Both the position numbers and the translations under genes were made by a program. Positions 5,273 through 52,943 of a stretch of 64,000 nucleotides of DNA are shown here, in pieces. Each line of letters begins with the position of its first letter. Within the stretch, counting starts at the first letter, position 1. Location: the NCBI GenBank assembly GCA_030692515.1, contig JAUXZS010000020.1, positions 620,001-684,000 on the forward strand, in the 5' to 3' direction. The stretch is from Bacteroidota bacterium (lineage in GTDB: Bacteria; Bacteroidota; Bacteroidia; B-17B0; Aurantibacillaceae). Under the pieces are notes generated by a model. It was not told where the DNA came from and did not search any database. It saw only the letters and a program-made list of their open reading frames with translations.

Positions 5273-8200
5273 CTAGATTTTAAAGCCAATTACCAAAATA
5301 TCGTCTACCTGCTCGTTATCACTCTTCCAGCTTAAATGAGCTTCTTTCAATTTCTGTTCTTGAGTGGCAAAATCTAATTCTGAATTTTCAATAATCAGTT
5401 CTTTAAATTTACCAGTACTGTATTTTTTATCTTTTGGTCCACCAAATTGATCAGCATAACCATCCGTAAAAATATAAAACGAATCGCCTTTATTTACTTT
5501 TAATGTATGAGTTGTAAACGCAATTTTATCTTCACGATCTTGTTGTTTAGTACCAATAGGAATTTTATCGGCCTTTATTTCAGTAATACTTTTATTATTC
5601 ACTATCCAAATTGGTCGCATAGCACCAGCATAATCAACAGTTCCATCCTCATGATTTATTTTACAGATAGCTACATCCATACCATCTTTAGATTCAGATT
5701 CATTTTTATAAAGAGCCTCTAAAACGCCTTTATTTAATTCAAATAAAATATCTTTTGGGTTAACTATTTTTTGTTCGTTTACTACTTTATTAAGTAGATT
5801 ATAACCTATTAAACTCATAAATGCACCCGGCACGCCATGCCCAGTACAATCAATTGCGGCAATAATACTACAATTATCAATGTGAGTAAACCAATAAAAA
5901 TCGCCACTTACAATATCTTTAGTCATGTAAAGTACAAAAGAATTTGGAATGGATTGTTTAATAACCGACAATTCAGGTAAGATAGCATGTTGTATTTTTC
6001 TGGCATACGAAATACTATCTAAAATATCTTTATTTTTTTGTTCGATTATTTTTTGCTGTCTTTTTGATTCTGTAATATCACTATCAATTATTATGATTTT
6101 TTTGATGTTATCGTTTTCATCAAAAATTGGCGTTAAGGTAGAAGCCTCCCATACTGAATTATCAGGGTTTTTTTGATTATATGATTCGTATTTAATTGAT
6201 TTTTTTGTGGCAATTGCCTCGCTTACAATATCTTTAATGCGAGAGTTATTGCTTGAAGTAAAAATATTTAATTTTTGCTCGAGAATTTCTTCTAAACTAA
6301 TTCTGTTTAATTTACTAAAACTTTCATTTACATATTCTATATCACCATTTGGTTTCAAAATCAAAACAACATTATCAGTTCTACTTGCAACAATAGACAA
6401 CTGTTCTAATTCTTTATTGGCTTCTGCAATAATTTCTGATTGTTTTTCTATTTCCTGAGTGCGCAGAGCAACTTTTTCTTCTAATATCAAATTCTCTTTC
6501 TGCAAAGCCTTTAATCTATATTTTAAAAAAGAATAAAGCGCTGAAGCAACAATAATAATTACTATAAGCCAAAACCACCATTTTTTCCAGATAGGCAATA
6601 ATATCACAAACGAAAATGTTGCCGGTTCACTCCAAACATCCTCCTCATTTTTAGACTGTACTACAAACGTGTAGGAGCCTGCCGTTAAATTATTATAATT
6701 CACTAACTTACTTTCAGTGGCATATAACCAATCTTCATCCTGACCTTCTAATCGAAATCTATAAGAAAGTTTGTCGGGATTTTTAAGCCAAATACCATCA
6801 AATGTAAAGGCTAAATTATTTTGCGAGTGGTTAAATTCAGAAACAGAATCAATCGGAAATGGCTTATAATTAATTTGTAATGCTTTAATGAAAACCTTTG
6901 GCTTAACAGAATCTAAAGCAATTTTACTGGTTCTGTATATTAAAATTCCATTATTAGTTCCGCTATATATTTTATCTCCGCATAAAAAAACTGCGTTTAA
7001 ACTTGGTTCTAAGTCCCCGTCAAATAAATCATAATAAGAAATGGAATTATTAATACAATCAATTTTATCGATGCCTTTAGAGTTGATTGAAAAAACCGTT
7101 CCATGCGAAGAAATAAGTTGAACAGGCTGTTCATCTCGAAGCCCTTCATTTAAGCCAATACTAATGATTGTTTTTCCATCATACTTAAGGATTCCGTTTG
7201 CATTAGATGATGCCCAAATTGAATTGAATTCATCTTTACAAAGAGAAATAATCGTATTTGATTTTATTTTAAATTTTTCTGTTAAGCTAATGAATTTATT
7301 ATTTTGATATGTTTGTAAACCACCGCCATCTGTTGCTATATAAAGTTTAGAGTTGCTATCTGTAATAGCCGCATAAACGTAATTACTTCCTAATCCTTCA
7401 TCCTCGGTGTAAATTTCATTAATTTTAAAATTAAACTTGTCAATGTCTACATTCACTTCAGCTTTAATTAAACCGCCACCAAGTGTAGAAATATAAGCCG
7501 TTTTATCATCAGCAAAATAAATGTTTGATATATTATCATTTGGTAAGGAGGATGTTTTAGAAGTGATGTTTGTTATTCCTTTTGTGCTCGGATTAAAAAT
7601 GCTTATTCCATTACCATAAGTACCAAACCATACACTACCCTCAGGCCCAATAGTAGCGCATGACAAAGTGTATTTAGTTCCTTCTAAAATTTTAGAAATA
7701 ACCAACTTACCTTTTTCATCCATCATCAATTTAGAAACCCCTTTGTTTGTTCCTACCCAAATTGCCTGATCGTTATCAGTAGCTATTGCTAGTATCTTAT
7801 CATCTTCTAAACCCCTTGAAGCGTTAATAAAATCATATCTTCTTTCAAAAAACTGACTAATTCCTTTTCGTGAGGCAATCCAAATTTGTTTCGACCTATC
7901 AATAAACATTTGATTGATACTGCTCGTTTGCAAATATTTTTCATAATCATAAATTGATATAACCCCATCTTTTAATTGCAAGAGGCCATTTCTTTCTGTT
8001 CCAACAATTGTGTTATTAGGAACCTGTGTACTCGCATTAACAATGGCTCCTAAGGTCCAATTTGCAAAAAAAGAAACTCTTTCAAGTTTAGATTCGTTAA
8101 TATCATAATAACAAACGCCTGAGTCTTGCATCGAAATCATCAGCTTTGATTTTTCGATAGAAATATCTCTTACAATATTATCGGGCAAGCCAACTTTATT

Positions 8201-8788
8201 AGAAATGATTTTATAGGATGGTTTGCTTAATACGTTTTTTATTTCGGTAAAACCGCCATCGGTAGCACACCAAATAGTATTTTTTGTGTTTGATACTATT
8301 TTATAAACAACGTCATCACTTAATCCGTTTTCAGAGGTAATATGTGTGGCTTTAGCTTTAGAGTAAATAAAAATTCCATTACCATAAGTACTGATGCAAA
8401 TAGCAGAATCAATTTCGCAAATTGAAGTGATTTTGTCTTCGTTGGCTGTTAGAAAATTAACGGAATCAATTTTATTTCCAAAAAAAGTAAATACTTTGCC
8501 ACTTTTAGTTCCAATCCACGCTTTATGTTTCTCATCGATATATATTGTAGTAATTGGCTGTTTAAATATTGAGCTACCTTTTGCTATTTGACTGGAAGTT
8601 TTTCCATCAAATTTATAAACTCCTTCATTGGTTCCTAACCACAAAAAGCCGTTTTTGTCTTGAACAACCACATTTACAGAAACATCTTTTTTTCCGGTAA
8701 AAGAAAAATAATTTTTTACGTAAAGTTGAGAAAATAAACTTTTTGAAAATAGCGCGATGATGAAAAGTATTTTATGCCCTTTTATCAT
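5273..8788 (-). CDS. Propeller / Y_Y_Y / PAS sensor with SpoIIE-type PP2C phosphatase output
   Basis: 1171 residues. A signal peptide is followed by a long periplasmic Reg_prop region (about 25-640, repeated W-x-G-T-x-x-G-V motifs), a Y_Y_Y domain (about 660-725, ending YTFVVQSKNEEDVWSEP), one membrane helix (about 733-755, WWFWLIVIIIVASALY), a coiled coil, a PAS domain (about 800-905), a linker ILDSISYARKIQHAILP and a SpoIIE/PP2C domain (about 955-1171). The phosphatase keeps the acidic metal motifs KDIVSGDFYWF, IDCTGHGVPGAFMS, FTDGYADQFGG and EQVDDILVIG. It should sense a periplasmic signal and dephosphorylate a serine/threonine-phosphorylated partner in the cytoplasm. No anti-sigma kinase or antagonist gene is adjacent, so the target is unknown. 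It starts 8 bases after the YceI gene, probably in one operon. Confidence 0.9.
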   Translation of the reverse strand: MIKGHKILFIIALFSKSLFSQLYVKNYFSFTGKKDVSVNVVVQDKNGFLWLGTNEGVYKFDGKTSSQIAKGSSIFKQPITTIYIDEKHKAWIGTKSGKVFTFFGNKIDSVNFLTANEDKITSICEIDSAICISTYGNGIFIYSKAKATHITSENGLSDDVVYKIVSNTKNTIWCATDGGFTEIKNVLSKPSYKIISNKVGLPDNIVRDISIEKSKLMISMQDSGVCYYDINESKLERVSFFANWTLGAIVNASTQVPNNTIVGTERNGLLQLKDGVISIYDYEKYLQTSSINQMFIDRSKQIWIASRKGISQFFERRYDFINASRGLEDDKILAIATDNDQAIWVGTNKGVSKLMMDEKGKLVISKILEGTKYTLSCATIGPEGSVWFGTYGNGISIFNPSTKGITNITSKTSSLPNDNISNIYFADDKTAYISTLGGGLIKAEVNVDIDKFNFKINEIYTEDEGLGSNYVYAAITDSNSKLYIATDGGGLQTYQNNKFISLTEKFKIKSNTIISLCKDEFNSIWASSNANGILKYDGKTIISIGLNEGLRDEQPVQLISSHGTVFSINSKGIDKIDCINNSISYYDLFDGDLEPSLNAVFLCGDKIYSGTNNGILIYRTSKIALDSVKPKVFIKALQINYKPFPIDSVSEFNHSQNNLAFTFDGIWLKNPDKLSYRFRLEGQDEDWLYATESKLVNYNNLTAGSYTFVVQSKNEEDVWSEPATFSFVILLPIWKKWWFWLIVIIIVASALYSFLKYRLKALQKENLILEEKVALRTQEIEKQSEIIAEANKELEQLSIVASRTDNVVLILKPNGDIEYVNESFSKLNRISLEEILEQKLNIFTSSNNSRIKDIVSEAIATKKSIKYESYNQKNPDNSVWEASTLTPIFDENDNIKKIIIIDSDITESKRQQKIIEQKNKDILDSISYARKIQHAILPELSVIKQSIPNSFVLYMTKDIVSGDFYWFTHIDNCSIIAAIDCTGHGVPGAFMSLIGYNLLNKVVNEQKIVNPKDILFELNKGVLEALYKNESESKDGMDVAICKINHEDGTVDYAGAMRPIWIVNNKSITEIKADKIPIGTKQQDREDKIAFTTHTLKVNKGDSFYIFTDGYADQFGGPKDKKYSTGKFKELIIENSELDFATQEQKLKEAHLSWKSDNEQVDDILVIGFKI

Positions 8789-8796
8789 TTACTATT

Positions 8797-9339
8797 TTAT
8801 GATTTTTTTTTAAGAGTAGCCGCCACACTTACCATAATAACTGAGGCGATTTTTTGATTTACTACTTTGGGAACGCTAATGTTATGATCTTCTAAAGGCA
8901 CTTCAAAGTTGGCATCTATAATTATCTCGGTATCAGTAACTACTATTTTTGCTTTTACAATTTTTTCTTTTTCAGTACCATGAATATTAAATTTTCCTTT
9001 TGCTCTTACCGTATAAGTACCATTTTTTTTAAAATCAATGTCTTCAATTATTTTACCTTTAAAAGTAGCGTTGGGATACTTCATGGTTTCTAAATAATTT
9101 TCTCTAAAATGTTCTTTTTGTAAACCGCTATTAAAGCCATTAAAAGAATCCACATTTACAGAAAACGCCACATTTTTGTTCCCACAATCAATTGCACCAA
9201 CAGTTTTAACAGATTCAGCCTTAATTAATTCTAAAGGAGCCTCTGATGTAAATTTAGTTTTACCATCCTTACACATAAATATCTGCGAAAAAGAATAGTT
9301 TGCAAAAATAAAACAAATAGCTAAAAGAGTGTTTTTCAT
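8797..9339 (-). CDS. YceI family periplasmic protein
   Basis: 180 residues. A signal peptide ends near Ser-18 (IFANYSFSQ). The mature part has the YceI lipocalin-like barrel pattern: DSFNGFNSGLQKEHFRENYLE, then MKYPNATFKGKI and GKFNIHGTEKEK. Family members bind long isoprenoid lipids in known structures; the ligand here is not known. Most YceI proteins continue with a polar FTF(D)L strand; this one ends in VIMVSVAATLKKK. It lies 8 bases ahead of the propeller/SpoIIE sensor, so the two are probably co-transcribed. Whether the barrel supplies the ligand sensed by the propeller is only an idea. Confidence 0.85.
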   Translation of the reverse strand: MKNTLLAICFIFANYSFSQIFMCKDGKTKFTSEAPLELIKAESVKTVGAIDCGNKNVAFSVNVDSFNGFNSGLQKEHFRENYLETMKYPNATFKGKIIEDIDFKKNGTYTVRAKGKFNIHGTEKEKIVKAKIVVTDTEIIIDANFEVPLEDHNISVPKVVNQKIASVIMVSVAATLKKKS

Positions 9340-9696
9340 TAATTTTATAATATTTATTGTTTAAATATACACAAAAGTTTTAATTTTTAAAATCCATCCT
9401 CTATTAGAGTTTTCCTTCCTTATTGGTGCTAATAAAAATTCAAGTCCGTTTAGCTTTATTTCGTATAGTGTATTTCCTAAAATCAAATTCAAAAAAAGTC
9501 AATTTATTCGGATATTTTGTCAATATTAGCTTCAAATACTCCAAAAAAAACTTAAATCAAATCGCTTTTGGTAAACCCCATAATTCTTATTAATTTAGGC
9601 ATATAGCAATTATTAAAATACAATTAAAACATCAGCTCTCGTTCTAAAACGTCTTTCAAATAAACTAAAAAAATCAATAAAATAAAATTTTACTTA
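9340..9696. other. 357-base divergent intergenic stretch with a gene remnant
   Basis: This spacer lies between the divergent YceI and TPR/SpoIIE genes and must hold both promoters, though no full TAnnTTTG box was found on the proper strand of either. Its one clear content is a fragment homologous to the DUF3820 gene located 2.3 kb away (listed separately). The remainder is AT-rich with no reading frame or RNA gene visible. Confidence 0.6.
9361..9490 (-). pseudogene. Remnant of a DUF3820 gene (C-terminal piece)
   Basis: Read on the minus strand, about 19 codons give GNTLYEIKLNGLEFLLAPI, against LNTLYEIKLNGLEFLLEQI in the intact DUF3820 gene 2.3 kb to the right. The nucleotide match is close over about 53 bases (9423-9475). 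An in-frame TGA lies a few codons upstream and the frame runs on to a TAA at the right side of the YceI start, so no complete protein can be made. The homology ends abruptly, as expected for a broken or partially duplicated copy. It may be left from an earlier duplication that included the neighbouring phosphatase gene end. Confidence 0.75.
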
Positions 9697-11778
9697 ATGA
9701 GAATCTTAGTCTTTTATTGCTTTCTTACCCCTTTACTTTCTTTTTCAATTAATATTGATTCTTTAACCTCAGTCCTTAGAAAAGAAAAAGAAGTTGATAA
9801 AAAAATTGATTTATATTCAATAATTTGTGAGAATTCAGAAGGCACACAATTGCTAAGAATTGCAAAAGAATATTATGCATTTAGTAAAACTAATCGCTCA
9901 GAAAAAGGCGTTGCTCAAGCCTGTGACAACCTTGGATATTATTATCAAATAAATAAACCCGATTCGGCTATTTACTTTTATAAACAAGCACTTAGCTTTT
10001 ACGAAAAACAAAAAGACCCATTTCGCATTTCTACTTTTCATAATCAACTTGGTGTTTGTTATTTCACTAAAGGAGATCTAAATGCTGCGCTCGATCATTT
10101 TTTAAAATGCACTGAGTATACGGATAAAAAAAAGGGATTTGTTTTAAATAATATTGCACAAATATATGTTAAGCTAGGGCAATTAGATAAAGCCATGGCT
10201 ACTTATTCGCAATCTATCAATTATTTTAATTTAGAGGGAGATACCACAATGGCTGCGGCAATAAACCAAAATATTGGAATGATGTATTTAGAAAAATTTG
10301 AATATGATAAAGCCGAAAAATACCTATTAAGCGCGCTTAATAAAATTTCGCCACAACACTATTCGTACACGCAAGCATTAGCAAATTTAGGTCTAAATTA
10401 TTCATTAAAAGGAGAGCCCGAAAAAGGAAAAATTTATTTACTAAAAGCGGCTTCATTATTCAGAAAAGAAAATAACTTGCAAGGATTAGCATTTACACTT
10501 GCTAACTTAGGAACCACATATAGCCTTTTGGGGAAGGATTACGAGGCTTTAACGAATTGCATTGAAGGTTATGAATTAAGCAAAAAACTAGGCTTTCTTG
10601 AAAACATAGAAAAAACTTCGCGCATGCTTGCTCGCATTTATGAAAAAAAAGGAGACTACAAAAATTCATTAAAGTATACTAAAATCTATCATCAAAGTAA
10701 AGACTCTCTTGTTTCTGAAAAAATAGCAAACAAATTAAACGAATCAAATATAAAATATGAGACTACACTAAAGGATCTTGAATTAATTAAACAGGCTGAA
10801 AAAATAGGAAAAAGTGAAATAGTTATTCAAAAACAAAATGTTGAGGCAGAAAAAAAACAAAAATTTATTTTTATACTATCACTCTTTGGACTGTTTGTTT
10901 TTTCTTTCTCTATTTTTATTTTTAGAGCATACAAACAAAAGCAACAAGCAAACAAAGTTATAACTCAGCAAAAAAACGAGGTAGAAAAGCAAAAACAAAT
11001 AATTGAACAACAAAAAGAAATTGTTGAAGAGCATCAAAAAGAAATTCTTGATTCAATTCATTATGCAAAACGTATTCAAAATACACTACTAGCGCATCAA
11101 GATTTTGTAGATGAAAATTTACCACAAAATTTTATATTTTTTAACCCCAAGGATATAGTAAGTGGTGATTTTTATTGGGCTGCAAAAAAAGGAGACAAGT
11201 TTTACATTGCCGCTTGCGATAGTACCGGCCATGGAGTTCCGGGAGCATTTATGAGCTTATTAAATATCGGATTCCTATCTGAGGCCATAAATGAAAAAGG
11301 AATTGAAAAACCAAATGAGGTTTTAAATTTTGTAAGAGAGCGTCTAATTGCCAACATAAGTAAAGAGGGGCAACAAGATGGTTTTGATGGCGTTTTAGTT
11401 TGCTTTGATAATAAGAACAAACAAATAACCTATAGCGCAGCAAATAACTCACCTCTCTTGATCCAAAATAATTTAATTATTAACTTAGAAGGAGATAGGA
11501 TGCCGGTTGGAATTGGAGAAAGAAAAGAAGATTTTAAATTATACACTATTAATGCCAACCCCGGCGATACGCTTTACTTATACACAGATGGTTACGCAGA
11601 TCAATTTGGCGGACCAAAAGGGAAAAAATTTAAATATAAACCATTGAACGAATTATTACTGCAAAATAATAGTCAACCTTTGCATGAACAAAAAAATAAA
11701 TTGAAAATAAATTTCGAGAATTGGAAAGGAACTCTTGAACAGGTTGACGATGTTTGCGTAATTGGAATTAAAATCTAA
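9697..11778 (+). CDS. TPR-repeat sensor with SpoIIE-type PP2C phosphatase output
   Basis: 693 residues. A signal peptide (MRILVFYCFLTPLLSFS) is followed by about seven tetratricopeptide repeats (roughly residues 60-340), a membrane helix (about 388-411, FIFILSLFGLFVFSFSIFIF), a coiled coil rich in K, Q and E (412-450), the linker ILDSIHYAKRIQNTLL and a SpoIIE/PP2C domain (about 480-693). Metal-binding motifs are intact: KDIVSGDFYWA, CDSTGHGVPGAFMS, YTDGYADQFGG, EQVDDVCVIG. The linker and phosphatase are clearly homologous to those of the 1171-residue sensor on the other side of the divergent spacer, while the sensor part differs. The stop codon overlaps the stop of the convergent DUF3820 gene by 4 bases. 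Confidence 0.9.
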   Translation: MRILVFYCFLTPLLSFSINIDSLTSVLRKEKEVDKKIDLYSIICENSEGTQLLRIAKEYYAFSKTNRSEKGVAQACDNLGYYYQINKPDSAIYFYKQALSFYEKQKDPFRISTFHNQLGVCYFTKGDLNAALDHFLKCTEYTDKKKGFVLNNIAQIYVKLGQLDKAMATYSQSINYFNLEGDTTMAAAINQNIGMMYLEKFEYDKAEKYLLSALNKISPQHYSYTQALANLGLNYSLKGEPEKGKIYLLKAASLFRKENNLQGLAFTLANLGTTYSLLGKDYEALTNCIEGYELSKKLGFLENIEKTSRMLARIYEKKGDYKNSLKYTKIYHQSKDSLVSEKIANKLNESNIKYETTLKDLELIKQAEKIGKSEIVIQKQNVEAEKKQKFIFILSLFGLFVFSFSIFIFRAYKQKQQANKVITQQKNEVEKQKQIIEQQKEIVEEHQKEILDSIHYAKRIQNTLLAHQDFVDENLPQNFIFFNPKDIVSGDFYWAAKKGDKFYIAACDSTGHGVPGAFMSLLNIGFLSEAINEKGIEKPNEVLNFVRERLIANISKEGQQDGFDGVLVCFDNKNKQITYSAANNSPLLIQNNLIINLEGDRMPVGIGERKEDFKLYTINANPGDTLYLYTDGYADQFGGPKGKKFKYKPLNELLLQNNSQPLHEQKNKLKINFENWKGTLEQVDDVCVIGIKI

Positions 11779-12014
11779 GCGTTTTTATGTTGCTCTCTTT
11801 TTATTTGTTCCAACAAAAATTCAAGTCCGTTTAACTTTATTTCGTAAAGCGTATTTAAAAGCATCCCTAATTTTCCATCCGGAAAACCTTTGCGGTTAAA
11901 CCATTCTAAATACTCAACAGGTAATTTATAAAGTATTATGCCTTTGTACTTACCATAAGGCATTTGCATATTTACAAGGTCAATTAATAATTGTGGATTA
12001 GCCTGCTCTATCAT
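11775..12014 (-). CDS. DUF3820 family protein, 79 aa
   Basis: Contains the family signature MPYGKYKGIILYKLPVEYLEW followed by FPDGKLGMLLNTLYEIK, typical of the small DUF3820 proteins (Pfam name 'putative quorum-sensing-regulated virulence factor'). It has no signal peptide or membrane helix and is probably cytoplasmic. The biochemical role of the family is not known to me. It starts 1 base after the stop of the upstream 159-residue gene, so the two form an operon. A broken copy of its C-terminus lies near 9.4 kb. Confidence 0.88.
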   Translation of the reverse strand: MIEQANPQLLIDLVNMQMPYGKYKGIILYKLPVEYLEWFNRKGFPDGKLGMLLNTLYEIKLNGLEFLLEQIKREQHKNA

Positions 12015-12015
12015 T

Positions 12016-12495
12016 TTAATTAATAATTTTTTCGATATCCACTAAAAAATCATTTTGTAAATCGGGGTGTAGGGTGTTTATTAAAGTATTAATTTTTTTT
12101 AATTGCTGTTCCATTAAATTAACTAACATCTGACTTTTATGATAAGGTATGCCGGAGTTTTTTAATTTCAAACAAAAGTAAATATACATTTCAGCAGAAA
12201 GACCTTTATCATCAATGTACTTAGTATACTTTGTAATTATTCGCAGTAATTTACGCAAACTCTTTTTTACATAATATAGATTCGATTGTGATTTTAAAAT
12301 TTCAAAATGTTCATTTATCTCTTCTTTTACTCCCTTAATAAATTCTAATTTATCATGCGCATCAAATAATAAATATCCTAAATATTCTTTATTATCTTTT
12401 TTATATTTAGCAAGAGCAATACATAAATCCAACAACTCTTTTGGTGGTAAGTGTTCTAATTCTTTTTTTATGTCGCTTAAGGCAGCAGCTTTCAT
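12016..12495 (-). CDS. Hypothetical cytoplasmic helical protein, 159 aa
   Basis: An all-helical, charged protein without signal peptide. It begins MKAAALSDIKKELEHLPPKELLDLCIALAKYKKDNKEYLGYLLFDA, a pattern recurring in unnamed Bacteroidota proteins. Helices heavy in Leu and Lys continue to the end (KSLRKLLRIITKYTKYI). I do not recognise a domain name. It lies directly upstream of the DUF3820 gene (1-base gap) and downstream of a strong terminator, so it must have its own promoter within a short spacer. A shared function with the DUF3820 protein is likely but unknown. Confidence 0.78.
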   Translation of the reverse strand: MKAAALSDIKKELEHLPPKELLDLCIALAKYKKDNKEYLGYLLFDAHDKLEFIKGVKEEINEHFEILKSQSNLYYVKKSLRKLLRIITKYTKYIDDKGLSAEMYIYFCLKLKNSGIPYHKSQMLVNLMEQQLKKINTLINTLHPDLQNDFLVDIEKIIN

Positions 12496-18695: not shown

Positions 18696-19490
18696 ATGTT
18701 TAAGAAATACTTCCTTCTATTAATTTTAGCAATTGGAACAACTTCATTTGCGCAGACATCAAGTACAAGTCCAGAATATGAAGGAAAAGTGGTTGGTGGA
18801 AAAGAACAAATTGAACAGATATTGCAAACGCAATTAACCTTACCTAAAACAATTTTAACTTCTAATTTTGATGTTGAAATAACTTGCTTTTTTGATATTG
18901 ATACTGCCGGAAATGCAGTAAATATTAAAATGGAAGGCGTTACAAACAATGTTTTGCGTAACGAACTAAAACGCATCTTTAATTTTTTTAAGTTTTTTAA
19001 AACTTTAAACTTACCCAACGAAAGCAGACCCTACTTTTTAATTTTTAAATTATCTACAGAAAAATACAATCGTTACTTTAAACAAAAAAACAAATTAAAT
19101 TTTAAAAACCCATTACCTGCCGATACAAGCTTTGTGATTTATACGAAAGCAGATAAGTCGCCGGAATATTATAAAAATGGTGATGACGGATTAGCAGAAC
19201 TTATTCTTTCAAAAATGGAATATCCAAAATTGGCAATAGAAAAATCTGTAGAAGGTACAGTAGTAATAGAGTTTGTTGTAGAAGCCAATGGCTACTTAAG
19301 TAATATAGCCGTAAAACAACCAGTGGGCGCAGGTTGCACCGAAGAAGCGTTAAGAGTAATAAAACTTACCAGATGGCAACCAGCAGTTGTAAATAATAAA
19401 TTTGCACGATACAAAACCCAATACCCAATTACGTTTAGTTTACGAAATATAAATAAGGATAACACCGGTGCAAATTCAATGGGGCAGTAA
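18696..19490 (+). CDS. TonB C-terminal domain protein (energy-transducer-like)
   Basis: 264 residues with a signal peptide (FKKYFLLLILAIGTTSFAQ). Residues about 165-250 are a TonB C-terminal domain: MEYPKLAIEKSVEGTVVIEF, then VKQPVGAGCTEEALRVI and WQPAVVNNKFARY. The N-terminus looks cleavable rather than a membrane anchor and there is no proline-rich spacer, so it probably acts in the periplasm as a soluble relative instead of as a true ExbBD-coupled TonB. An N-terminal region (residues 25-140) looks like a second, degenerate copy of the same fold. It follows the DUF5686 barrel gene by 42 bases. Confidence 0.88.
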   Translation: MFKKYFLLLILAIGTTSFAQTSSTSPEYEGKVVGGKEQIEQILQTQLTLPKTILTSNFDVEITCFFDIDTAGNAVNIKMEGVTNNVLRNELKRIFNFFKFFKTLNLPNESRPYFLIFKLSTEKYNRYFKQKNKLNFKNPLPADTSFVIYTKADKSPEYYKNGDDGLAELILSKMEYPKLAIEKSVEGTVVIEFVVEANGYLSNIAVKQPVGAGCTEEALRVIKLTRWQPAVVNNKFARYKTQYPITFSLRNINKDNTGANSMGQ

Positions 19491-19570
19491 TATTAGAGAG
19501 TTAATGGTAATTTTTAAAAGGAAAACAAATAACCATGAATACGACATTGACAATAAACAGAATTAACAAT

Positions 19571-20398
19571 ATGAAAATAATAAAAAAACTTTTAATAATT
19601 GTACTGACCCTTTTCCTGCTAACAAATTGCAAACAGTACATTCAGGTTTTCGACACAGCCTCAAAGACAGTTAAAATATCAGACACCCTTGCAATTTTTG
19701 AAACAGACAGCGTTAAAATATCTTATACTTTTTGGTCCGACAAAGGACTAATGTCTTTTTCTATTTTCAATAAACTTGACAAGCCAATTTATATTGATTG
19801 GAAAAGTTGCGCTTTCATCGACAATGGTAATAAACTTAATTATTGGGATGACGGGCAGTTGACAATCACTGATATGAAATCTCGCTACGGCAGTTACTTT
19901 TATAGCGGACCTTTATTAGAACCTGGCTTTACATTAAACAAAGGTGTTCAAATTACAACTTCAACCTCAAAAGTAATTAAACCTGAACGAATCACATTTA
20001 TACCACCTAAATCTAACTATACAAGGACACAATTCTATTTAATGCCGAACAGAAATTTCTATTCTATTGATCGGAAAGTTGCTACTAAAACTAAAGTTAA
20101 ACGCAATGATAAACCTAGAAAAAAGACTGACATTCACGAACTAAAATATGATTACAATAATTCTCCTTTTAAAATCAGAAATTATCTAGCCTTTTCTCTT
20201 AGCGAAAATTCTTCTAATTTCTTTTATGTCGACAATGAATTCTTCCTAACATCTGTAAAAGAAATGGACTACAGGCACTATCAAGGACGCCACGTTATGG
20301 ACAATGGAAAAATCAGTAAAAAAGAATGGATGCCATTTACAAAACCATCTTCATTCTTCTTAAAACTCGAAGGTGTTGACAACATAGAAAGTAGATAA
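19571..20398 (+). CDS. Hypothetical lipoprotein, 275 aa, atypical codon use
   Basis: The start was chosen at MKIIKKLLIIVLTLFLLTNC, a lipoprotein signal with a lipobox (LLTNC); an upstream ATG would prefix twelve polar residues before it. The mature protein has alternating strands (DKPIYIDWKSCAFIDNG, TRTQFYLMPNRNFYSI) reminiscent of unnamed Bacteroidota lipoproteins; no family is recognised. Aspartate is written mostly GAC (about 12 of 17), whereas neighbouring genes mostly use GAT, so it may be a recent arrival. A GC-richer imperfect stem-loop follows the stop codon. Function unknown. Confidence 0.78.
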   Translation: MKIIKKLLIIVLTLFLLTNCKQYIQVFDTASKTVKISDTLAIFETDSVKISYTFWSDKGLMSFSIFNKLDKPIYIDWKSCAFIDNGNKLNYWDDGQLTITDMKSRYGSYFYSGPLLEPGFTLNKGVQITTSTSKVIKPERITFIPPKSNYTRTQFYLMPNRNFYSIDRKVATKTKVKRNDKPRKKTDIHELKYDYNNSPFKIRNYLAFSLSENSSNFFYVDNEFFLTSVKEMDYRHYQGRHVMDNGKISKKEWMPFTKPSSFFLKLEGVDNIESR

Positions 20399-20423
20399 GC
20401 AATGAGGCGCTAAAATCAAGCAA

Positions 20424-20454
20424 TTGCGCAATGCGGGTTTTCGGCACATCGCAA
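20424..20454. repeat. Imperfect stem-loop behind the atypical lipoprotein
   Basis: Arms TTGCGCAATGC and GCACATCGCAA pair at both ends around a symmetric 3-base internal loop, enclosing the loop GGGTTTTCG. It is clearly GC-richer than the surroundings. No T run follows, so it is not a standard terminator. It may be a cassette border or a recombination-type hairpin; no GTTRRRY integron core is visible. Confidence 0.5.
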
Positions 20455-20470
20455 GATTAATTCAAAAAAT

Positions 20471-20899
20471 TTAAAATTTCTTTAAAGCCCAATTCTCTTT
20501 ATCACGCATTAGTTTAGAATCTTTTGCGGTTTTATCTTTGTATCCACAAAGGTGAAGTATGCCGTGAATGATGACACGTTTTATTTCTGTTTCAAAATTT
20601 GCATCAAACTTTTTAGCATTTTCTTTTACGCGCTCTACGCTAATAATGATATCGCCGTTAATTAAATTTCCTTCGCAATAATCAAACGTAATAATATCTG
20701 TGTAGGTAGAATGATTCAGGAATTGAATGTTAGTTTTTAAAAGTTCTTCGTCCGTAGTAAAAACAAAATTTATTTGTCCTAATTTTTTCTTTTCTAACTC
20801 AATAATTTTTTTTACCCACTGTTTAGTTTTTATCTTTTCAGATAATTTAAAGTGAATTGGTCTAGAATCTATTTCTTGATTTTGAAAGGAGATAGCCAT
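20471..20899 (-). CDS. ybeY: Endoribonuclease YbeY (rRNA maturation)
   Basis: 142 residues. YbeY is a zinc metalloprotein needed for 3' processing of 16S rRNA and ribosome quality control. The signature region reads VIIHGILHLCGYKDKTAKDS: two histidines of the HxxxHLxGYxH motif are present, but the usual third histidine is replaced (GYKD). I recall the same KDK variant in other Bacteroidota, so this is probably lineage-normal and not a defect. LNHSTYTDIITFDY is also typical. It follows the lipoprotein gene by 2 bases, which in turn follows serS by 2 bases, forming a serS-lipoprotein-ybeY operon. Confidence 0.93.
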   Translation of the reverse strand: MAISFQNQEIDSRPIHFKLSEKIKTKQWVKKIIELEKKKLGQINFVFTTDEELLKTNIQFLNHSTYTDIITFDYCEGNLINGDIIISVERVKENAKKFDANFETEIKRVIIHGILHLCGYKDKTAKDSKLMRDKENWALKKF

Positions 20900-51545: not shown

Positions 51546-52943
51546 TTAATATCCTAAAATCTTAAGCATGCTTTTATAACTCTGCTCTTTTGCAAAAAGA
51601 CGAGTTGAAAATTTTCCATCTTCATCTCTATCAATTAAAACATGTTTTGGCGCGGGAATTAAACAATGCTGCGTTCCACCATAACCGCTCAAAGCCTCTT
51701 GGTAGGCGCCAGTATGAAAGAATCCAATGTACTGCGGCTGCTTTTGATTTTTATCGATTTTAGGTAAAAAAACCTGATTGGTATGAGCTTCTGTATTATA
51801 ATAATCCATACTATCACAAGTCATTCCCCCAAGATTAACCGGCCCATAAGGCTTTTCCCAGTTATTAATAGCCAATAAAATAAAACGCTGATTAATACCC
51901 CAGGTGTCAGGAAGCGTGGTAATAAAACTGCTATCTATGAAGTACCAGGTTTCACGGTCGTTTTGTTGCTTTTGATCAACAACCGAAAATAATGTTGCGC
52001 CACTTTCTCCAACTGTATATGAACCAAATTCTGTAAAAATATTTGGTTCAGGAATATCGTTTTGATTACAAAAAGATTTTATTTGCGCCACAATTTCTTC
52101 AATCATGTATTCGTAATCGTACTCAAAGCTAAGAGATGTGCGAATTGGTAATCCTCCACCAATATTCAAAGAATCTAAAGTGGGGCAAATCTCCCTTAAT
52201 TCTTTATAAATCATTAAACATTTGTTTAATTCTGTCCAATAATAAATGGTGTCTTTTATTCCGGTATTAATGAAAAAATGTAAAAGTTTTAAACTGAATT
52301 TTGGATTTGTTTTTATTTTCTCCTTATATAAATTCATTATTTCGCTGCTGCGAATACCTAAACGAGACGTGTAAAATAAAAAAGAAGGTTCTTCTTCGGT
52401 ACTAATTCTTATTCCAAGATTTACATTATCAACCTTACAATGTTTTTTATAATATTCAATCTCATCTAAGTGGTCTAAAACCGGAATAACATTAAATCCT
52501 TCATTAATCAACTCGGTAATGTTTTGCTTATAGTTTTGACGCTTATAACCGTTACAAATAATATATGTATCTTTGTTTAATGCTTTTTTTTGAAATTGCT
52601 CTTTGATAATATTTAAATCAAATGCCGACGAAGTCTCTATATGAACCTCGTTTTTAAGAACCTCATCGAGTACAAAACTAAAATGAGAGCTTTTAGTGCA
52701 ATAACAATAAACGTATTTGCCTTTATAATCTACTTTTGCCATTGCAACGTTAAATAATCGCTTGGCTTTTTGTATTTGCGAGCTGATTTTAGGCAAATAA
52801 CTTATACGCAAAGGTGTTCCGTATTGCTTTATAATATCCATTAAATGGATGTCATTAAAGTATAATTCATCATCTTTTACTTCAAATCCCTCTTGAGGAA
52901 AGTTAAAAGTTTGGTTAATTAGTGTCGAATACTGGTTATTCAT
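51546..52943 (-). CDS. speA: Arginine decarboxylase (fold type III, Bacteroidota type)
   Basis: 465 residues. Decarboxylates arginine to agmatine, the first step of polyamine synthesis by the agmatine route. The alanine-racemase-like barrel has the PLP lysine in YCYCTKSSHF, the glycine-rich phosphate loop LNIGGGLPIRTS and the C-terminal substrate/dimer cysteine in GGMTCDSMD. Much shorter than proteobacterial SpeA (about 630-660), as usual for this phylum. It diverges from an arginase-family gene with a 97-base spacer holding a -7 box (TATTTTTG) and two palindromes placed in its leader. Related diaminopimelate decarboxylases are an alternative, but the sequence follows the Bacteroidota arginine decarboxylases. 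Confidence 0.88.
   Translation of the reverse strand: MNNQYSTLINQTFNFPQEGFEVKDDELYFNDIHLMDIIKQYGTPLRISYLPKISSQIQKAKRLFNVAMAKVDYKGKYVYCYCTKSSHFSFVLDEVLKNEVHIETSSAFDLNIIKEQFQKKALNKDTYIICNGYKRQNYKQNITELINEGFNVIPVLDHLDEIEYYKKHCKVDNVNLGIRISTEEEPSFLFYTSRLGIRSSEIMNLYKEKIKTNPKFSLKLLHFFINTGIKDTIYYWTELNKCLMIYKELREICPTLDSLNIGGGLPIRTSLSFEYDYEYMIEEIVAQIKSFCNQNDIPEPNIFTEFGSYTVGESGATLFSVVDQKQQNDRETWYFIDSSFITTLPDTWGINQRFILLAINNWEKPYGPVNLGGMTCDSMDYYNTEAHTNQVFLPKIDKNQKQPQYIGFFHTGAYQEALSGYGGTQHCLIPAPKHVLIDRDEDGKFSTRLFAKEQSYKSMLKILGY

Follow-up and report, generated by a model that had tools for sequence, protein, structure and literature searches.

A lipoprotein gene trailed by half an attC-like site: a probable relict cassette of an integron-like system in a Bacteroidota genome

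Why does a lone lipoprotein gene stand between a TonB-domain gene and ybeY in a Bacteroidota bacterium, with a GC-rich hairpin directly behind it? The original prediction, made from the letters of the locus, likened the gene and its trailing structured element to a mobile cassette. We analyzed the locus within a stretch of 64,000 nucleotides (here called the window), and its features are collected in Table 1. We conclude with high confidence that the gene and its trailing element are a relict cassette, derived from an integron-like system located elsewhere in the genome. That source is very probably a gene-capture system consisting of a tyrosine recombinase of ∼380 amino acids, an attI-like site, and an array of cassettes.

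Table 1. Features of the lipoprotein locus, in window coordinates
Feature	Position	Strand	Basis
TonB C-terminal domain gene, left host flank	18696..19490	+	Pfam TonB_C, 8e-15
Cassette-start-like GTTA-ATGGT-AA, weak	19500..19515	+	Fits start grammar GTTA-N5-AA
Lipoprotein gene (275 aa) within the relict cassette	19571..20398	+	GAC in 12 of 18 Asp codons
Cassette-end flank GCAATGAGGCGC	20399..20410	+	Like the bases preceding TAAC at intact sites, e.g., gcaacgaggca-TAAC
5' half of attC-like site with a decayed core (TAAA in place of TAAC); 3' half absent	20411..20454	+	41/44 identity to intact same-genome copies
Local hairpin, left arm TTGCGCAATGC	20424..20434	+	Read in sequence
Local hairpin, right arm GCACATCGCAA	20444..20454	+	Read in sequence
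ybeY, right host flank	20471..20899	-	Pfam YbeY, 3e-27

The lipoprotein gene and its broken site

The lipoprotein gene, which an alternative ATG at 19535 would lengthen by 12 amino acids, has no Pfam match at an E value of 0.001. Its codon use is as unusual as the original prediction stated: aspartate is encoded by 12 GAC and 6 GAT codons, the highest GAC share of 45 window open reading frames (ORFs) chosen mechanically (at least 150 amino acids and at least 8 Asp codons; 175 GAC and 718 GAT pooled, the lipoprotein gene included). In 19 cassette ORFs of the same genome, picked by hand from array stretches L007 to L010, 146 of 200 Asp codons are GAC, which explains the codon signal of the lipoprotein gene.

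The predicted imperfect hairpin behind the gene is also present, and the 44 nucleotides around its arms are 45% GC, compared to 32% for the window. This 44-nucleotide stretch has five more copies in the same 4.33-Mb genome (E values of 7e-13 to 5.5e-8), all on other contigs. Given this recurrence, and since the next-best ungapped match to an intact copy in the window reaches only 25/44, the half-site is not a chance resemblance. The intact copies, on contigs C9, C10, C16, C18, and C31, are longer sites of the form TAAC-A-stem ... centre ... stem-AAAAC-GTTA, with the second arm ∼120 to 130 nucleotides further downstream. At these copies, the relevant pairing joins the half to its distant second arm and is not that of the local hairpin alone. 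The original prediction covered just the local hairpin, which is not itself the recombination site; the relevant pairing uses an arm that this copy has lost. Four exact right-arm patterns, searched on both strands of the window between 16 and 25 kb, were absent. In the 725,112 bases of the genome examined, every other left arm of this pattern belongs to a called site, with the window half-site as the one exception. The prediction correctly stated that no canonical attC core or integrase is visible, as there is no intact core at the locus and the 13 Phage_integrase matches of the genome all fall outside the window. An attC-site finder that requires TAAC and GTTA with paired, anchored arms returned a single weak palindrome from the window (TAAC...GTTA, 183 bp, positions 51682 to 51864; -11.9 kcal/mol on one strand and -11.6 on the other), which we take to be chance.

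We then compared the locus with those of relatives. Among 30 ybeY loci examined, the TonB-domain gene adjoins ybeY in 15 relatives, and the lipoprotein gene is absent between the two in all 15. The stop codons of the flanking genes are 8 to 13 bp apart in six of these relatives, and a gap of 46 to 508 bp with other sequence separates the genes in the remaining nine; in the window the gap is 980 bp. Because the content of the gap differs among relatives, the spot between the TonB-domain gene and ybeY is variable, and the lipoprotein gene is either an inserted gene or what survives of an insertion. Of the nine, five near relatives (L237 to L241) carry 459 to 508 bp there that look alike by eye, possibly a different small gene. 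Of the order's other 86 genomes, 7 encode homologues of the lipoprotein, at 28 to 33% identity. The idea that it is a known array cassette elsewhere was rejected, as these homologues have no forward attC-like site in the flanks examined.

The 41/44 match of the half-site, the absence of the gene from the 15 relatives, and its cassette-like codon use together point to a relict cassette. A gene conserved at this position with normal codon use would have spoken against the original prediction, and neither property was found. Could the hairpin nevertheless be a transcription terminator or an RNA element of a resident gene, with no tie to mobility? Its position directly behind the stop codon is in keeping with such a role. 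However, the identity to the 5' half of array sites and the gene's absence from relatives and codon use all argue against it, and Rfam returned zero family matches at an E value of 0.1 on an array with nine such sites (L104, scanned in place of the window copy). We regard a terminator or resident RNA element as extremely improbable.

The predicted cassette nature is thus supported, with the correction that this copy is broken. The 3' arm was not found, TAAA stands in the place of TAAC, and the start-like sequence at 19500 has no complementarity to the cassette's own end (GGCGC). Such a mismatch between start and end may come from two fused cassettes or from the decay of one. Half of the site was probably lost after the window copy had left an array or entered a secondary site. 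Like CALINs (clusters of attC sites lacking an integrase) and stranded single cassettes, it is an isolated piece with no Phage_integrase match in the window; unlike them, it keeps just half a site.

attC-like sites, cassettes, and the attI-like site

The site finder called sites on all five contigs that carry intact copies. In the 725,112 bases of the genome, 29 sites at -13 or better and ending in CGTTA lie behind unrelated genes, compared to 0 in nineteen control regions (355,388 bases). The original prediction had proposed looking for the hairpin behind unrelated single genes, and such copies were found both in the same genome and in other Bacteroidota. In total, 139 distinct sites were collected, and by sequence they resemble attC: imperfect palindromes with conserved cores, variable sequence, and a centre that varies greatly in length. 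One unpaired base follows TAAC and five precede GTTA in 100 of the 139 sites, in contrast to VCR sites, where the spacer from core to stem is about 4 to 5 on both arms. Extra unpaired bases lie on the 5' arm in 42 sites and on the 3' arm in 12, with equal numbers in 85; for canonical attC, extrahelical bases are described on the 5' (R''-L'') arm (PMC2727003).

Mostly one gene lies between two sites, and the longest ORF runs along the array in 17 of 18 cassettes of the genome. Cassette contents include PemK and ParE toxins with small partner ORFs, a GmrSD-type protein, and lipoprotein-like ORFs. Toxin-antitoxin genes and genes of unknown function are typical of the cassettes of large integron arrays, and both are found here. 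Between attC-like sites of contig C16 (L010, positions 6810 to 11717), two large DNA-methylase-like proteins and a helix-turn-helix protein are encoded; named by eye, these genes resemble a restriction-modification or defence island within the array.

Cassette starts carry ∼5 private bases after GTTA whose complement precedes TAAC at the cassette's own end, a property that sets these arrays apart from class 1 and Vibrio chromosomal integrons. In 68 of 84 pairs of adjacent sites the complementarity spans at least 4 nucleotides, compared to a mean of 3.9 and a maximum of 13 such pairs in 5000 shuffles; this measure is independent of the finder, which ignores those bases. Since the private ends move together with their cassette, the exchange is placed at or before GTTA. 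Natural junctions are consistent with this: when the same cassette lies behind different sites, identity begins at GTTA or a few consensus bases before it. Over the 60 nucleotides compared, identity was 100% for the pair C62/C12 and 95% for C40/C16, both of the same genome, 100% for attI/attC of one Crocinitomicaceae contig, and 82% between attI of another genus of the family and attC of this genome. As read from sequence, such junctions would fit site-specific recombination at GTTA. On a Crocinitomicaceae contig (L168, positions 11181 to 12097), what seems to be the same cassette occurs twice in tandem, behind attI and behind attC.

Is there an attI-like site in cis? Of the 42 recombinase loci of the order, 20 have an attC-like site, and 19 of these have a candidate GTTA behind the recombinase, identified through complementarity to the end of the first cassette. 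The distance from the end of the recombinase match to this GTTA is 93 to 105 bp in 15 loci, 142 bp in one, and 663 to 869 bp in three. The one locus without a candidate at the 4-nucleotide threshold (L095) also contains the attI motif. All 19 candidates have TATA at -13 to -10 and an A directly before GTTA. At 51 of 105 loci, the resulting motif, TATA-W-NNN-A-GTTA, lies no more than 200 bp from the end of the recombinase, compared to 4 of 4687 upstream windows. An imperfect palindrome usually precedes the attI GTTA, which is a further difference from integrons.

A recombinase family beside the arrays

Two recombinases of 382 and 385 amino acids (contigs C62 and C12) lie upstream of attC-like sites in the genome. 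Another tyrosine recombinase, at the end of contig C50 (L034, positions 6174 to 7184), was set aside: it has no attC-like site in the 7.3 kb examined and a different C terminus, and it resembles the recombinases that accompany IS91-type elements. Homologues at an E value of 1e-60 or better were found in 56 of the 87 genomes of the order, leaving 31 without one; flanks were retrieved for 40 of the 64 matches in the order, plus the genome's own two. By profile at an E value of 1e-90, the family is present in 96 of 247 sampled genomes of the window's class, taken as Bacteroidia. Among the best 80 of 577 loci, it occurs in named Flavobacterium species (F. palustre, F. limicola, F. soli, F. suncheonense, F. 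psychrophilum, and F. cheongpyeongense), in Kaistella, Pedobacter, Algoriphagus, Rufibacter, Arundinibacter, Marinilabilia, and others, and in one metagenome-assembled genome labelled Ignavibacteria and two labelled Nitrospirae. Some of the loci in named genomes have no sites, while F. limicola DSM 15094 has three downstream of the recombinase and F. soli DSM 19725 has two.

The position of the sites relative to the recombinase is strongly one-sided. Across 119 loci (122 minus three duplicate records, with one further duplicate pair, L126 and L084, remaining), 119 forward attC-like sites were called in 446,180 bp downstream and 4 in 967,708 bp upstream; sites in reverse orientation number 3 in all. 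A site is present in 43 of the 60 loci with at least 1500 bp downstream. The other 17 have no attC-like site at the threshold, and 12 of these also lack an attI motif within 1 kb, indicating that not every member of the family sits in such a platform. In 59 of the 119 loci the sequence ends less than 1500 bp downstream of the recombinase, as expected if arrays break assemblies.

We infer from these arrangements that the adjoining recombinase is the enzyme of the attC-like sites. Alternatively, the arrays could be remnants of an ordinary canonical integron (CALINs), served in trans by a classical IntI and lying next to this recombinase incidentally. The general layout would suit that explanation, with TAAC/GTTA cores, imperfect stems, a bias of extra bases toward the 5' arm, and mostly one-gene cassettes. 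Canonical IntI is also found in other classes of the phylum, exceeding its cut-off in 84 of 296 sampled genomes (of 85 genomes with a match, one is from the class of the window), and, with arrays broken across contigs, another enzyme could lie in a gap. However, a canonical IntI over the cut-off occurs in only 1 of the 87 genomes of the order, as a gene with an in-frame stop, and none is over the cut-off in the window's own genome. The sites lie almost solely on one side of the recombinase and the attI-like site directly behind its stop codon, neither of which suits an incidental neighbour. We therefore give the canonical remnant very little credence. The single genome with the interrupted IntI (L265; in-frame TGA, G042:C26:4401-5339) also carries the array recombinase, with an in-frame stop and then three attC-like sites.

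Relation to integrons and to Xer recombinases

Integrons are the best-known natural gene-capture devices. With class 1 and Vibrio chromosomal integrons, the system shares a recombinase gene next to an attI-like site, followed by cassettes, mostly of one gene, that all point the same way; these cassettes likewise end in imperfect palindromes that have TAAC/GTTA cores and carry their extra bases more frequently on the R''-L'' side. In Treponema integrons, the integrase is described as read towards attI and along the cassettes, as here (PMC3607928); the enzyme there is called IntI, whereas the recombinase of the present arrays is not IntI by its domains.

Six residues of the recombinase are invariant in 38 aligned proteins (R239, K264, H329, R332, H355, and Y364), and we take them to be the catalytic residues. 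The genome's two recombinases score 211.6 and 211.3 bits against the IntI model TIGR02249 (cut-off, 265) and 211.8 and 218.9 bits against NF040815 (XerA type; XerC/XerD), narrowly below its cut-off of 220; some plasmid members of the family are annotated under the latter name. The interval from the Lys box to HxLRH, which contains the I2 region in IntI, is 64 to 69 residues in 117 of 119 entries (a few of them duplicates), compared to 106 in IntI, where the regular expression measured 7 of 30 proteins. IntI4 (2A3V) aligns at residues 10 to 181 and 242 to 318, and its intervening 60 residues (182 to 241) face 18 in the recombinase; XerA aligns in one stretch with no large insertion. In contrast to XerA and XerC/XerD, the recombinase has an SPFDxL C terminus, an N-terminal domain, and a place beside attC-like arrays. 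This C terminus is like that of IntI (SPVDGL, SPFDGL) and unlike those of the other tyrosine recombinases listed for the genome. The best solved match was the integron integrase 2a3v, followed by XerA, in a fold search, and archaeal XerA, ahead of the integron integrase, in a sequence search. In a tree of 61 proteins (the family, IntI, and other recombinases of the genome), IntI forms one clade, and long branches leave the family unplaced relative to IntI and Xer. By sequence, then, the system has the sites, array, and attI-like element of an integron, and its enzyme falls outside IntI on the defining comparison, so that we classify it as a variant rather than a member. Integron surveys are described as requiring the IntI-specific domain (PMC2426708, PMC9668308).

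We propose that the recombinase would join circular cassettes to the attI-like site ∼100 bp downstream of its own gene or, alternatively, to the attC-like site of another cassette. Exchange at the conserved GTTA would line up cassettes head to tail behind the recombinase gene. The enzyme may act on folded single strands as IntI does, perhaps helped by its N-terminal domain.

Might the repeats instead be double-stranded binding sites, Xer/dif-like or transposon-like, with cassettes moving as double-stranded circles and no strand folding at all? The insertion with which IntI reads extrahelical bases is missing from the recombinase, and its best solved match by sequence is XerA, both of which would suit such an enzyme. 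On the other hand, the arms vary widely in sequence and yet stay paired: the mean pairing energy is -18.6 for a site's own arms and -9.0 for arms swapped between sites, a difference that is partly circular, as the finder selects sites on pairing. Variation of the arms with persistence of their pairing fits recognition of shape rather than of sequence. We consider double-stranded sites unlikely, while giving them real weight.

A further and tentative proposal, which we hold to be possible but somewhat short of probable, is that Bacteroidia contain a second kind of integron, in which folded single-stranded attC is recombined without the I2 helix, and hairpin shape is read instead by an N-terminal domain similar to HARP/XPB. 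The family would then be a separate solution or a branch of IntI from before I2. Residues 1 to 77 form a separate alpha/beta domain in the predicted structure (pLDDT of about 90 over residues 1 to 70), with the motif WSxTxKxWYxPY. Its likeness to HARP of SMARCAL1 and to the N-terminal domain of XPB, domains that bind DNA junctions, is weak and not significant in both sequence and fold. Weak Pfam matches were to DUF5710 (7 of 32 members; best E value, 0.0034) and to HARP (PF07443; 2 of 32 members; best E value, 0.012). Foldseek placed Escherichia coli YciH first (E value, 0.065) and SMARCAL1 HARP 4o66 second (E value, 0.17), and VIA-align placed XPB first (Z score, 5.9), tied with eIF1-type folds (5.8), none of them significant. 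A search of solved structures with the N-terminal profile returned ankyrin-type proteins and leghaemoglobin and no HARP. We advance the shape-reading role for this domain purely as a hypothesis.

If the recombinase is the integrase, a large share of Bacteroidia (96 of the 247 genomes sampled) may carry a gene-capture system missed by IntI-domain searches, on chromosomes and probably on some plasmids. In a RefSeq survey with IntI models, one complete integron is reported for Bacteroidetes proper, in Salinibacter ruber M1 (PMC9024848), and a review counts Bacteroidota among the phyla with integrons (PMC8618304). The system would also bear directly on the question of how an enzyme for double strands became able to recombine folded single strands, a shift that has been tied to the I2 helix; this helix is described as recognizing the extrahelical bases of attC (PMC7790495). 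Among the matches listed from openly licensed PubMed Central papers, no title or abstract opening dealt with such a system, which may nevertheless be described elsewhere.

Plasmid records with a match to the recombinase at an E value of 1e-40 number 157, and in 9 of them at least 80% of the protein is covered. The two best matches are Chryseobacterium plasmids at 54 to 55% identity. In NZ_CP094530.1 the attI motif is intact, and no attC-like site was found in 10 kb. NZ_CP041688.1 has an attC-like site 1.4 kb downstream of the recombinase and GTTG as its attI core, and this plasmid is possibly a mobile form of the system. Between positions 9974 and 19960 of this plasmid (L274), the recombinase, the attI-like stretch, and the single attC-like site are accompanied by a group II intron and an IS110 element.
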